Shown here piece after piece: positions 16,243-19,712 of a stretch of 64,000 nt of DNA. Under the pieces are notes generated by a model that was not told the origin of the DNA, did no database searches, and saw nothing but the letters and a program-made list of their open reading frames with translations. The stretch's first letter is position 1, and the number at the start of each line of letters is the position of its first letter. The stretch lies in the NCBI RefSeq assembly GCF_018860665.1, contig NZ_JAHKPK010000051.1, forward strand, positions 1 through 64,000, written 5' to 3'. A program made the translations under genes and the position numbers. The DNA is from Pacificibacter marinus. GTDB lineage: Bacteria > Pseudomonadota > Alphaproteobacteria > Rhodobacterales > Rhodobacteraceae.

Positions 16243-16605
16243 ATGACAGATTCAGACGCTCCCGTCGAAGGCACTCCGCTGATCAAGCCTTCCAACACGG
16301 AACACCCGCTTCACGAAGCCATCGTGGAAGCCTGCCGATCCGTCTACGACCCTGAAATTCCCGTGAACATTTATGATCTCGGGTTGATCTACACGATCGA
16401 AATCAACGCAGAGAACGAAGTGCATGTGATCATGTCCCTAACCGCGCCGGGCTGTCCTGTTGCGGGCGAAATGCCGGGTTGGGTCGCCGATGCGATTGAA
16501 CCGCTGCCCGGCGTCAAACAAGTTGACGTCGATCTGGCGTGGGAACCCCCGTGGGGCATGGAAATGATGTCAGATGAAGCGCGCCTAGAGCTTGGCTTTA
16601 TGTAA
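16243..16605 (+). CDS. sufT: SufT-like iron-sulfur assembly protein (DUF59/MIP18)
   Basis: A 120-residue MIP18-domain protein involved in maturation or transfer of Fe-S clusters. Diagnostic features are VYDPEIPVNIYDLGLIY, MSLTAPGCPVAGEMPGW with the single conserved cysteine, and VDLAWEPPWGMEMMSDEARLEL-type C-terminus, of which I see WEPPWGMEMMS. In related genomes this gene is usually next to a SufA/HesB gene; here they are separated by three genes (lysR, satD, DUF3307). The ATG at 16243 follows ACACGAGGACAG, giving a GAGGA site six bases away. Ends in a strong terminator. Confidence 0.92.
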   Translation: MTDSDAPVEGTPLIKPSNTEHPLHEAIVEACRSVYDPEIPVNIYDLGLIYTIEINAENEVHVIMSLTAPGCPVAGEMPGWVADAIEPLPGVKQVDVDLAWEPPWGMEMMSDEARLELGFM

Positions 16606-16631
16606 TCGCTCACATTGTTGATTTTACGCTT

Positions 16632-16820
16632 TCAAAACGGTCCTTCGGGGCCGTTTTTCGTTTCCCGCCTCAACATCCTCAAGCACCATTGCACGCGCCT
16701 TGCGCGCCTGTCCTTTTTAAACTGCTGATAGAGCGCGCGGTAGTGCGCTTGCTCTGACTGAAACCCTGTTGGCGTTTGAGATTTTGAAGGTGATAAAAAA
16801 ATCGCTAAACGGTCATTCAT
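16632..16820 (-). CDS. Small basic protein of unknown function
   Basis: A 62-residue reading frame with an excellent start: AAGAGGTG lies seven bases before ATG at 16820. The product is Arg/Lys/Gln-rich (QQFKKDRRARRVQWCLRML) with no membrane segment. Its last codons run through the sufT terminator hairpin, which is either an overlap of gene end and terminator or a sign that the frame is not real. No family recognised. Confidence 0.4.
   Translation of the reverse strand: MNDRLAIFLSPSKSQTPTGFQSEQAHYRALYQQFKKDRRARRVQWCLRMLRRETKNGPEGPF
16634..16658. terminator. Intrinsic terminator after sufT
   Basis: AAAACGGTCC, tetraloop TTCG, GGGCCGTTTTT. Ten base pairs capped by a stable UUCG-type loop; works in both directions. 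Confidence 0.92.
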
Positions 16821-16915
16821 CAAGACACCTCTTGCATTATTGAAATCTATATGCAGAGATTACCGCACAAAAACCTGTCGAAATACGCCCAGAAACTGCA
16901 TTTGGACTTTCAAAA

Positions 16916-17791
16916 ATGAAAGACAAACCCAAACTCAAAACCGCCCCCAAGCTAGACGACTATATGCTGTTTCTCGCTGTCGCCGACGGCGGTGGCCTTG
17001 TGGGGGCTGAGCAGGCCACAGGCACCCCCTCGCCTACATTGTCGCGCAGGATGACGGCTTTAGAGCGCACTTTGGGCAAGCGCTTGTTTGAACGTGGCGC
17101 ACGGGGGTACACGCTGACCAGCGATGGGCGCGCCCTTGCCGCCGAGGTCGAACATCTGCGCGCCGCCGCGCAACACTTGGCCGCCTTCAACGCCAAGCAA
17201 ACGCGCCCCCTTGTGCGCATCACCGCAGGCCATTGGACCACACAATACATCGCACGGCATTTTGGTGAGGTTTGGTCTCAAGACGCCTCTTTGGTGCCAT
17301 CTGTTCCGTGGGTGCCCGAGCTCGTTTCTTCAGACGCCATGGTCGACATCGCGCGGCGCGAAGCCGACATCGGCATTCGCAACAGGCGTCCCGATCAAAC
17401 ATGGCTGGCAGGGCGGCGCACCGCGCGCATTGCTTATGCTGAATTCGCCCGTGGTCCCGAAGTAACGGGCTATATCACCCTGCCCGAATCTCTTGCCACG
17501 ACGCCCTCGAAACGGTGGTTGCGGCACAACAAACCTGATGAGATCGTCAGCACCGCCTCTGATCCCCGCGCTGAGGCCGATTTGGCCATTGGCGGCATAG
17601 CCCGCGTGATTTTGCCTATTTTCGCCGGGCGCGCCATGCCCGAACTGGTGCAGGTTTCGCCCGAGATTGACGCACTCACCCATGAAGAATGGTTGGTCAG
17701 CCATCATGACGCCCGCCACGACCCGCCCATCCGCGCCGCTTTGGACGCGATTGGCACATTGTTGAGTGCGCCGACGCGGTTTGGGCCTTAA
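16916..17791 (+). CDS. LysR-family transcriptional regulator
   Basis: A 291-residue regulator with an N-terminal winged HTH at about 15-75 (MLFLAVADGGGLVGAEQATG, TPSPTLSRRMTALERTLGKRLFER) and a LysR-type ligand-binding domain after about 95. The inducer domain is divergent (IRNRRPDQTWLAGRRTARI is the readable core) and gives no ligand. It begins about 310 bases after sufT and ends 19 bases before the first dyad of the satD array, so it is a candidate binder of that array, although the array's proximity to satD points to satD control. Part of the three-gene segment between sufT and the sufA-like gene. Confidence 0.9.
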   Translation: MKDKPKLKTAPKLDDYMLFLAVADGGGLVGAEQATGTPSPTLSRRMTALERTLGKRLFERGARGYTLTSDGRALAAEVEHLRAAAQHLAAFNAKQTRPLVRITAGHWTTQYIARHFGEVWSQDASLVPSVPWVPELVSSDAMVDIARREADIGIRNRRPDQTWLAGRRTARIAYAEFARGPEVTGYITLPESLATTPSKRWLRHNKPDEIVSTASDPRAEADLAIGGIARVILPIFAGRAMPELVQVSPEIDALTHEEWLVSHHDARHDPPIRAALDAIGTLLSAPTRFGP

Positions 17792-17810
17792 TGTGGCCCC
17801 CAAGCTGACG

Positions 17811-17920
17811 CGCAACCCAAATCGGCTGCGCACTTCCAAACGCAACCTAAATAGGGTGCGAAATGATCAACGCATCCTAAATAGGTTGCATATCACAAAA
17901 CGCAGCCTATATTGGCTGCA
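17811..17920. repeat. Four 20-bp dyads at exact 30-bp spacing upstream of satD
   Basis: Copies start at 17811, 17841, 17871 and 17901, each 20 bases with 10-base unrelated spacers. The shared form is CGCANCC-TAAAT-NGGNTGCR, a near-palindrome with arms GCANCC and GGNTGC. Copy 4 has perfect 6-bp arms (GCAGCC/GGCTGC). The last copy ends two bases before the satD ATG. The 30-bp period equals about three helical turns, so all copies face one side of the DNA. This is an operator array, not a CRISPR. Confidence 0.9.
17886..17913 (+). promoter_or_regulatory. Probable satD promoter embedded in dyads 3 and 4
   Basis: TTGCAT (17886-17891, in the right arm of dyad 3) and TATATT (17908-17913, centre of dyad 4) are 16 bases apart. 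Transcription would begin near 17919-17923, at or just before the satD ATG, so the message would be leaderless; no Shine-Dalgarno fits before this ATG. Pattern-based inference. Confidence 0.45.
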
Positions 17921-17922
17921 TC

Positions 17923-18561
17923 ATGACAGATGAAACACGCAAAATAGCCGTCCTCACCGGCGATATCGTCGGCTCCACCGCGCTGGGCCCCGAAAAACTT
18001 GAACGCGCTTTCGATGCGCTCAAAGATTGCGCCGAGACGCAAGCCGAGTGGATGGGAGAAAGCTTGCATTTCACACGCCACCGCGGCGACGGCTGGCAAG
18101 TGGCACTGGCCGAGCCGAAATATGCACTGCGGTCAGCTTTGATGTTTAGAGCAGCTTTGCGTAGCTTAGGGGCAGAATTTGATAGCTATATTGGAATTGC
18201 TGTTGGTCCTATTTCGACTGACCTTGCGCCAAACTTAAATTCAGAAAACGCTGAAGTATTTGTGTCCTCAGGAAGAGCACTAGAAATAGCAAAGAGGCAG
18301 GGTACATATTTTCTTCATGATAGCGGGGGAATGGTCGACGCCCTAACTCTATCAATGGAGTTAATGAGCCACGGATGGACTAAAGCGCAATCCCAAGCAG
18401 CAATGTATTCCCTACCACCACATAGCGACCTAAGTTTTACGGAAATTAGCGATATCCTCGAAAAATCACGGCAAACTGTAACAAAGGCTTTGAATAGCAT
18501 AGCAATAGAACAGATCAGGATGATCCTAACACAATTCGAAAGTGACAAGTCACATGTTTGA
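17923..18561 (+). CDS. SatD-family protein with C-terminal HTH
   Basis: A 212-residue protein. Residues 8-19 (AVLTGDIVGSTA) recall the metal-binding strand of class III nucleotide cyclases, as in SatD/PF16264 proteins; a cyclase-like core extends to about residue 140. Residues about 160-195 (SFTEISDILEKSRQTVTKAL) form a helix-turn-helix, so it may bind the dyad array directly upstream. SatD is recurrently paired with a DUF3307 membrane protein, as here (8-base overlap). By hand count 17941-18120 is 62% GC but 18121-18540 is 43%, a sharp break inside the gene that suggests a recombinant. Function in gene control or nucleotide sensing is inference. Confidence 0.82.
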   Translation: MTDETRKIAVLTGDIVGSTALGPEKLERAFDALKDCAETQAEWMGESLHFTRHRGDGWQVALAEPKYALRSALMFRAALRSLGAEFDSYIGIAVGPISTDLAPNLNSENAEVFVSSGRALEIAKRQGTYFLHDSGGMVDALTLSMELMSHGWTKAQSQAAMYSLPPHSDLSFTEISDILEKSRQTVTKALNSIAIEQIRMILTQFESDKSHV

Positions 18562-19318
18562 AACCCTGTCTGCCCTCTTCTTCGCTCATGTCCTTGCCGA
18601 CTACGTGTTTCAAACCACCAAGATGGCGCAGAGCAAGGATCGCTATGCCACCCTGCTCATCCATACGTTTGCAGTTTATCTTTGTGCCGTGATCGCTTTG
18701 GGGTCTATCGCATGGCAGGTCGCTGTGCTTGCAGGACTGCACTTCATCATAGATGGATTGAAAGCCATCTGGGTCAAAACCCGCAAAGATGAGGGAATCA
18801 AACCCTACTTAATCGATCAGCTCACACATCTAGCCACCATCGCCGCGATCGCAGCCTTTGCCCCGACCCTTTGGGCAGATGGCGTTTGGAGCAAAGATCT
18901 GGCGGCAGGCGGCTTATTGGACATCAGCCCTTGGGCACCGAAAGCGATGTTGCTGACGGCCGGTATTTTATACACGACCCGCGCGGGTGGCTTTGCCGTC
19001 GGAAAATTGATGGTGCCATTTGCAGAAGGTGCCCCCGAGAAAAGCTTGCCCAAAGGCGGCATGATGATCGGCGTCCTTGAACGTGGGCTGATTTTCTTGA
19101 TGTTTCTCGCAGGTCAGCCCGCTGGTATCGGTTTTTTGATCGCTGCAAAGTCAATTTTGCGCTTTGATTCCGCGTCAAAGAATGAAAAGGCCGAATATGT
19201 GATCATCGGCACGCTGGCCTCGTTCAGCTGGGCGATTGCGATCGCAATCTTAACTCTTGCGATCAACAATGGGTTAAACGGTGATCCGCTTCTTGAGATC
19301 ATGGCCGCAAAGCCCTAA
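18554..19318 (+). CDS. DUF3307 membrane protein, SatD partner
   Basis: A 254-residue membrane protein. The N-terminus (FETLSALFFAHVLADYVFQT) is the DUF3307 signature, with LLIHTFAVYLCAVIALGS, HFIIDGLKAIWVKTR and LIDQLTHLATIAAIAAF completing that domain. Further hydrophobic segments follow (about 160-180, 190-205, 225-245), giving six to seven in total. I use the ATG at 18554, eight bases inside satD; a GTG at 18542 is possible. Overlap means translational coupling with satD. Its high GC returns to the window's norm, unlike satD's tail. No activity is known for the family; the conserved charged residues in membrane helices (HxLxD) suggest an enzyme or transporter. Confidence 0.85.
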   Translation: MFETLSALFFAHVLADYVFQTTKMAQSKDRYATLLIHTFAVYLCAVIALGSIAWQVAVLAGLHFIIDGLKAIWVKTRKDEGIKPYLIDQLTHLATIAAIAAFAPTLWADGVWSKDLAAGGLLDISPWAPKAMLLTAGILYTTRAGGFAVGKLMVPFAEGAPEKSLPKGGMMIGVLERGLIFLMFLAGQPAGIGFLIAAKSILRFDSASKNEKAEYVIIGTLASFSWAIAIAILTLAINNGLNGDPLLEIMAAKP

Positions 19319-19340
19319 GTTAGGGGAAAGGAGAACGCAT

Positions 19341-19712
19341 ATGTTCGGTATTCCAGGCAAACAAGCCGTCACCATCACGCCCAAAGCGGCGGCACAAATC
19401 GCAAAACTGATGGAGAAAGATGGCTCCAAAGGTTTGCGCATTGGCGTCAAAAAGGGCGGCTGCGCAGGCATGGAATACACCATGGACTATGTGAATGAAA
19501 TCGATCCTCTGGACGAAGTGGTCGAACAAGATGGCGGTCGCGTGATGATCGCGCCCATGGCGCAGATGTTCTTGTTTGGCACCGAGATCGATTACGAAGT
19601 GTCCTTGCTGGAAGCTGGCTTTAAGTTCCGCAATCCCAATGTGGTTGACGCTTGCGGCTGTGGCGAAAGCATCAAGTTCGATGAAAATCTGTCTGCACAA
19701 AGCCGCGCGTAA
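19341..19712 (+). CDS. sufA: HesB/IscA-family iron-sulfur scaffold (SufA-like)
   Basis: A 123-residue A-type carrier that receives and delivers Fe-S clusters. The three conserved cysteines are present: one in KKGGCAGMEYTMDY and two in DACGCGES. The start at 19341 is set by AAAGGAG seven bases upstream; longer readings lack a site. The TfoX gene starts immediately after its stop, so transcription probably continues. It lies 2.7 kb from sufT, with lysR-satD-DUF3307 between. The remaining SUF genes are not in this window, so the symbol rests on family likeness. Confidence 0.88.
   Translation: MFGIPGKQAVTITPKAAAQIAKLMEKDGSKGLRIGVKKGGCAGMEYTMDYVNEIDPLDEVVEQDGGRVMIAPMAQMFLFGTEIDYEVSLLEAGFKFRNPNVVDACGCGESIKFDENLSAQSRA

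Follow-up and report, generated by a model that had tools for sequence, protein, structure and literature searches.

A tandem dyad array next to a SatD-type gene of Pacificibacter marinus as the probable operator of SatD itself

Introduction

The SatD family (PF16264) was named after the sat operon of Streptococcus mutans. The aspartates of the class III nucleotidyl cyclase fold are metal-binding, and active class III cyclases also have an Asn-x-x-x-Arg helix motif. MarR-type repressors such as ZitR and AdcR are one-component proteins which regulate their own genes by means of dyads lying over the promoter. In Streptococcus pyogenes, according to one report, satD is accessory (178 of 249 genomes) yet was scored as essential where studied (PMC11323703). 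A SatD operator, or binding of DNA by SatD, is undescribed among the literature matches listed, a search whose scope excluded the original sat operon paper (PMC95171).

Here we describe a SatD-type gene of Pacificibacter marinus which is preceded by a tandem array of palindromes, and for which we computed the arrays, their step, the covariation between operator and recognition helix, the gene coupling and the predicted fold. "The window" refers to the whole stretch of DNA analysed, 64,000 nucleotides of contig NZ_JAHKPK010000051.1. Its SatD-type protein resembles the SatD family in aligning over its full length to profiles of family members, which likewise have DUF3307 or a short membrane ORF downstream, but differs in that it and 55 of 58 relatives are missed by the Pfam model. 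Residues 1-150 share the fold of class III cyclases (Ma1120) and of GGDEF domains; unlike the class III cyclases, the protein is fused to a helix-turn-helix (HTH) and appears to have lost the Asn-x-x-x-Arg motif (judged by eye, the Ma1120 alignment ending at profile position 97). The HTH has a weak sequence likeness to MarR-type repressors, which lack the cyclase-fold partner domain and the tandem arrays with a 28-30-bp step. As in Pycsar systems, a cyclase-fold protein is paired with a membrane protein, and one plasmid copy adjoins an annotated Pycsar effector; the HTH and the conserved chromosomal neighbourhood with Fe-S genes set the SatD-type pair apart. An autoregulated repressor with tandem operators is a known kind of system; what appears to be new here is the presence of a cyclase-fold domain, of an array that covaries and keeps a 28-30-bp step, and of a link to DUF3307.

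Results

Four dyads at a 30-bp step precede the SatD-type gene

The features of the locus are as follows.

16243-16605, + strand: DUF59 (FeS_assembly_P) gene, a conserved neighbour
16916-17791, + strand: LysR-type gene, ending 20 bp upstream of the array and judged to be outside the system
17811-17830, no strand: predicted operator dyad 1, CGCAACCCAAATCGGCTGCG
17841-17860, no strand: predicted operator dyad 2, CGCAACCTAAATAGGGTGCG
17871-17890, no strand: predicted operator dyad 3, CGCATCCTAAATAGGTTGCA, its right arm over the -35-like TTGCAT
17886-17891: -35-like TTGCAT, weak (3/6 match), under the right arm of dyad 3
17901-17920, no strand: predicted operator dyad 4, CGCAGCCTATATTGGCTGCA, with a -10-like TATATT at its centre
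17908-17913, + strand: putative -10 TATATT (5/6 match), centred in dyad 4
17923-18561, + strand: SatD-type gene, 212 aa; predicted to comprise a cyclase-fold domain (residues 1-150) and an HTH whose recognition helix spans 183-192
18554-19318, + strand: DUF3307 membrane-protein gene (PF11750, E 1.8e-15, 57.5 bits against a cut-off of 23), overlapping the end of satD by 8 bp
19341-19712, + strand: HesB/IscA-type (Fe-S_biosyn) gene, a conserved neighbour

We confirmed that 17811-17920 holds four 20-bp dyads with start-to-start steps of 30, 30 and 30 bp, and that two bases separate the end of dyad 4 from the satD ATG at 17923, as a sequence-only reading of this DNA had described. The same reading had allowed a spacer of five or six bases within the repeated palindrome; the palindrome stands, and the core of all four dyads is GCANCC-N6-GGNTGC. 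Its statement that all dyads face one side of the helix proved wrong: with 10.5 bp per turn, a 30-bp step makes 2.857 turns, which rotates each successive dyad by about -51 degrees and leaves dyad 4 about 154 degrees away from dyad 1, and the array therefore follows a screw path along the DNA instead of one face.

The 19-base dyad consensus, allowing up to 3 mismatches, gave 4 matches in the window, where shuffled sequence gave a mean of 0.02. The four matches come from three dyads, one of which matches on both strands; dyad 4 has more than 3 mismatches. In the 3.9-Mb assembly the pattern GCANCCNNNATNGGNTGC has no exact match outside the four dyads, of which dyad 4 matches on both strands. When one mismatch was allowed it matched 23 times on the forward and 20 times on the reverse strand, whereas the reversed pattern used as a control gave 6 and 7. 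Eight of these 43 matches are the array itself and the others are scattered; since they exceed the control (43 vs 13), single sites elsewhere in the genome are possible, the closest being at C6:30224 (region L081, one mismatch). A double-dyad pattern with 30-bp spacing and up to 3 mismatches matched inside the array alone across the assembly (control 0), and a second array elsewhere in this genome was accordingly rejected.

The SatD-type protein has a predicted cyclase-like fold and a C-terminal HTH

We rejected "SatD" as a name given by Pfam, because the window protein does not match the PF16264 model: it had no match at E 0.1, and there was none in the genome search at E 0.001. Only 3 of 58 relatives matched (best E 0.004) and 55 of 58 did not even at E 0.1. 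Comparison by hhalign nevertheless gave full-length profile homology to accepted PF16264 members, namely L103 (probability 97.3, E 1.7e-11) and L102 (probability 92.6, E 4.5e-7), both of which exceed the Pfam cut-off; the profile alignment to L104, which is below the cut-off, had a probability of 99.6.

Residues 1-150 are predicted to adopt a cyclase-like fold, and the protein shares both this fold and the metal-binding aspartates with class III cyclases: D14 and the GD at 55-56 are invariant in the 58 relatives (58 of the 73 proteins then collected) and line up with Ma1120 in the sequence alignment. Of five structure models, four had a mean pLDDT of 56-74. Sequence matches for the HTH were weak (5yi0, E 0.003; MarR_2 in 20 of 58 relatives). 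These structure and profile comparisons agree with the cyclase-like N-terminus and C-terminal HTH that had been proposed from the letters, at the level of a prediction.

Tandem arrays recur in Rhodobacteraceae at a step of 28-30 bp

A protein search of 295 family genomes returned 65 matches and a profile search of 394 genomes returned 86, and a class-wide sample of 289 genomes gave 5; the 2 of these that come from outside the family span the cyclase part only. Our set of 92 loci comprises the 65 protein-search matches (including the window copy), 8 from genome contigs and 19 of 20 new regions. Arrays were sought with a detector which asks for tandem dyads of no set sequence, with 200 dinucleotide shuffles per locus.

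A score of at least 8 was reached by 73 of the 92 SatD-type upstream regions and by none of 92 control windows taken further upstream at the same loci. The array was significant at p ≤ 0.01 in 75 loci and weak or missing (p > 0.01) in the remaining 17. Steps between retained dyads in the 75 loci were 29 bp (82), 30 bp (38), 28 bp (20) and 31 bp (1). When the best step was chosen freely from 15-50 bp it fell at 28-30 bp in 78 of 92 loci, compared with 6 of 107 shuffles (one per sequence). It should be noted that a detector chained at 30 bp alone missed the 29-bp class and was replaced; the replacement, on a smaller earlier set, gave p ≤ 0.01 for 65 of 73 loci.

The sequence-only reading had named a lack of dyads before satD homologues as grounds for abandoning its proposal; arrays are present before most of them. 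The GCANCC dyad at 30-bp steps, which it had suggested looking for, is that of the window's own class, among them the eight named loci (Pacificibacter, Celeribacter, Loktanella and Cognatishimia). The other Rhodobacteraceae loci have different half-sites (mostly of CAAG or AAAG type) at 28 or, mostly, 29 bp.

Arrays beyond the family keep the step with dyads of their own

We also examined 19 distant upstream regions from other Proteobacteria (genomes and named plasmids), Segatella (Bacteroidota) and Fusobacterium. This count excludes L132 and L134 (near copies of L131 and L133), L106/L123 and L124 (the same places as L104 and L103) and L129, whose gene start was unusable. The best step was 28-29 bp in 11 of the 19, with dyad sequences of their own, such as TTAGCC..GGCTAA in Vibrio lentus, GTAACC..GTTAC in Pseudoalteromonas and GTCAACC..GGTTGAC in Enterobacter kobei; 9 of the 11 had p ≤ 0.05, the exceptions being L128 and L136. 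The other eight (L107, L125, L126, L127, L130, L133, L137 and L138) had no peak at 28-29 bp, L107 peaking at 21 bp (p 0.03) with 28 bp next; candidate dyads were visible by eye in L107 and L138. These figures come from a scan of even and odd centres, which replaced an even-centre scan (10 of 15 at 28-29 bp); adding odd centres removed the 28-bp peak of L133 and changed p for L136 from 0.033 to 0.109. Arrays, where present, vary less in their step than in their dyad sequence.

For the Pseudomonas fragi plasmid pPFL (L138, 1690-1800), the annotation places the SatD-type start ahead of the candidate dyads. As these precede a likelier start, the annotated gene probably begins too early.

SatD is coupled to DUF3307 and flanked by Fe-S assembly genes

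The coupling of satD to a DUF3307 membrane protein, which had been proposed from the window alone, held widely: DUF3307 lies downstream of satD in 88 of the 92 loci, the pairing seen in the SatD family. Of the four loci without it, the contig or stretch ends early in L074 and L077, while L099 and L100 lack the gene, and in both of these satD is decayed. In L099 the conserved aspartates of satD are lost. In L100 satD runs out of frame before the HTH and the array is still present.

DUF59 is found upstream in 85 of 92 loci and the HesB-type gene downstream in 84 of 92. In the window (16243-19712) the satD-DUF3307 pair is likewise flanked by these Fe-S assembly genes, as in most of the 92 loci. 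No array was seen by eye in L112-L114, which have the order DUF59-DUF3307-HesB and no satD. In a phylum-wide sample DUF3307 was present in 18 of 249 genomes. Of those 18 loci, 11 lacked an adjacent SatD-type ORF, including 5 of the 8 Rhodobacteraceae of that sample.

Seven plasmid records carry a relative of the window protein, and DUF3307 follows in all five which have gene annotation; the L103 protein had no match in plasmids. A plasmid of Sphingomonas insulae (L130, 1983-4072) has a SatD-type gene and DUF3307 beside an annotated Pycsar system effector, and no dyad array was detected upstream. In a Klebsiella ColRNAI plasmid (L140, 260-1937) a SatD-like gene and DUF3307 fill much of the 4,424 bp, which bear 5 annotated features; the SatD-like gene is annotated from 362 and has a better start upstream at 260. 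DUF3307 had no match in phage records, and a PHROG membrane-protein family matches it.

Operator bases covary with residues of the predicted SatD recognition helix

We compared operator bases with 204 alignment columns of the SatD-type protein in 76 loci, this being the 92 minus 13 without a usable array, L011, and two with a broken HTH (L077 and L100). L101, the weak match G229, was left out as it had no match. Residue 183 is Arg in 64 of the 76 loci, all with a majority G at operator position -9, and the 12 loci with another residue have T (11) or A (1) there, a concordance of 76 of 76. The best predictor was column 183 for position -9, 184 for -8, 187 for -10 and 181, followed by 188, for -5; each of these five columns falls within the predicted recognition helix (183-192) or next to it. 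Position -6 was best predicted by column 110, which is outside the HTH, and the almost invariant -7 by column 52; no column stood out for -4.

The agreement is not complete. Three of the seven loci without C at -8 retain Q184, and of the 20 loci that have C at -5, 3 lack K181 and 1 lacks K188; the -5 signal comes largely from a single clade, and a column beyond the HTH (89) scores nearly as high (0.57 vs 0.68). Among the 13 loci without a usable array, residue 183 is Gln in 8 (L020, L055, L057, L066, L070, L085, L088 and L093), Lys in L029, Pro in L098 and Arg in L052, L086 and L099. By eye, and outside the count, L011 and L052 combine Arg183 with G at -9, and L086 combines Arg183 with a mixed T/G.

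These counts are inflated by shared ancestry, and few independent changes lie behind them. On a tree built without the HTH, in which 48 of 87 inner branches are weakly supported, the -9 state changes at least 5 times. There are five independent -9 pairs on all branches and two on starred branches, both agreeing; the sign test was not significant, and with just two starred pairs significance is out of reach. Because the covarying positions fall at the recognition helix, we take the covariation as a strong case, not as proof. It is indirect evidence that the DNA-binding domain contacts a matching operator, and the binder of the array is most likely SatD itself.

The array could instead be bound by another regulator controlling satD-DUF3307, either an unlinked factor or the local LysR protein, which the sequence-only reading had listed as a candidate. 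LysR genes often control neighbouring genes and this one ends close to the array, but just 7 of 92 loci have a LysR gene in the 140 bp preceding the satD start, while arrays are present in most; this makes the LysR protein an unlikely binder. With the operator bases tracking residues of the SatD helix as well, we consider control by another regulator very unlikely.

That the dyads are RNA hairpins, or a repeat element with no DNA-binding role, is extremely unlikely. Such an explanation would account for repeated palindromes and for one terminator-like match on the minus strand (17847-17824), formed from parts of dyads 1 and 2. However, there was no Rfam match up to E 1 within 17500-18300, the paired pattern occurs at one locus per genome, and the dyad sequence varies while the step and the HTH covariation stay.

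The array overlaps a putative promoter with a probable near-leaderless start

The sequence-only reading had placed a -35/-10 pair inside dyads 3 and 4. The array overlaps a plausible promoter with a -10 of 5/6 match, but the -35 is weak and a promoter scan requiring 9/12 reported none. We infer from the sequence a predicted transcription start at about 17920-17923, which would give a leader of 0-3 nt.

Trends across the 76 loci support the earlier suggestion of a leaderless mRNA in the form of a probably near-leaderless one. The centre of the last dyad lies 8-13 nt upstream of the start codon in 55 of 76 loci; -10-like hexamers (at least 5/6) occur in 29 of 76 last dyads compared with 10 of 141 other dyads; and a Shine-Dalgarno-like string precedes the start in 4 of the 55 loci with the last dyad at 8-13 nt, compared with 8 of the remaining 21. 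Together these agree with transcription from a promoter located beneath the array, with a leader of roughly 0-3 nt, in which case bound SatD would block the promoter.

SatD might instead bind the array to activate its own operon, or have a dual role; in favour of this, the upstream dyads lie outside the core promoter and the -35 is weak. The position of the last dyad on the -10, in the window and in many relatives, suits the blocking of polymerase and not its recruitment, and we regard activation or dual control as quite unlikely.

Discussion

We consider it likely that the array is the operator of the adjacent SatD, and that SatD represses its own near-leaderless satD-DUF3307 operon. Each dyad would be bound by a SatD dimer through the C-terminal HTH, with adjacent dimers in contact, probably through their cyclase-fold domains; such contact would explain the fixed step of 28-30 bp. 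As the last dyad would cover the -10 and the right arm of the preceding dyad the -35 region, occupancy would shut off the satD-DUF3307 mRNA. The outcome would be negative autoregulation together with control of the DUF3307 membrane protein, and release may come from a ligand; in view of the cyclase fold this is perhaps a nucleotide. The proposal of a self-regulated module, made from one locus, gains from the operator-helix covariation and the recurring arrays, and also from the decayed satD in the two loci lacking DUF3307 and from the three loci that have neither satD nor a visible array. The weak or absent arrays in some homologues, the exceptions in the covariation and the DUF3307 genes that have no SatD beside them count against it.

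A more far-reaching idea is that SatD-DUF3307 is a nucleotide-sensing guard module, also carried by plasmids, in which a dead cyclase would hold a harmful membrane protein in check through a cooperative operator filament until stress or infection releases it; satD would then act like an antidote gene. The presence of the pair on small plasmids, the copy beside a Pycsar effector and the accessory yet essential status of satD reported for Streptococcus pyogenes (PMC11323703) speak for this. Against it, DUF3307 occurs without SatD in 11 of 18 loci and so is not simply lethal alone, which argues against a strict guard, and the PADLOC 2.0.0 defence-protein models gave 0 matches for the window pair and the L130 pair; the L135 SatD-type protein had 4 weak matches (best E 0.007). 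We therefore think the guard module unlikely.

The repressor model, in which SatD is a DNA-binding autoregulator with a cyclase-fold domain and DUF3307 its regulated partner, would give a testable role to SatD-type proteins and DUF3307, two families of unclear function which are paired in several phyla. The operator-helix covariation provides a ready-made specificity series. The reported status of satD in Streptococcus pyogenes, accessory yet essential, may reflect the loss of a repressor of a harmful partner.
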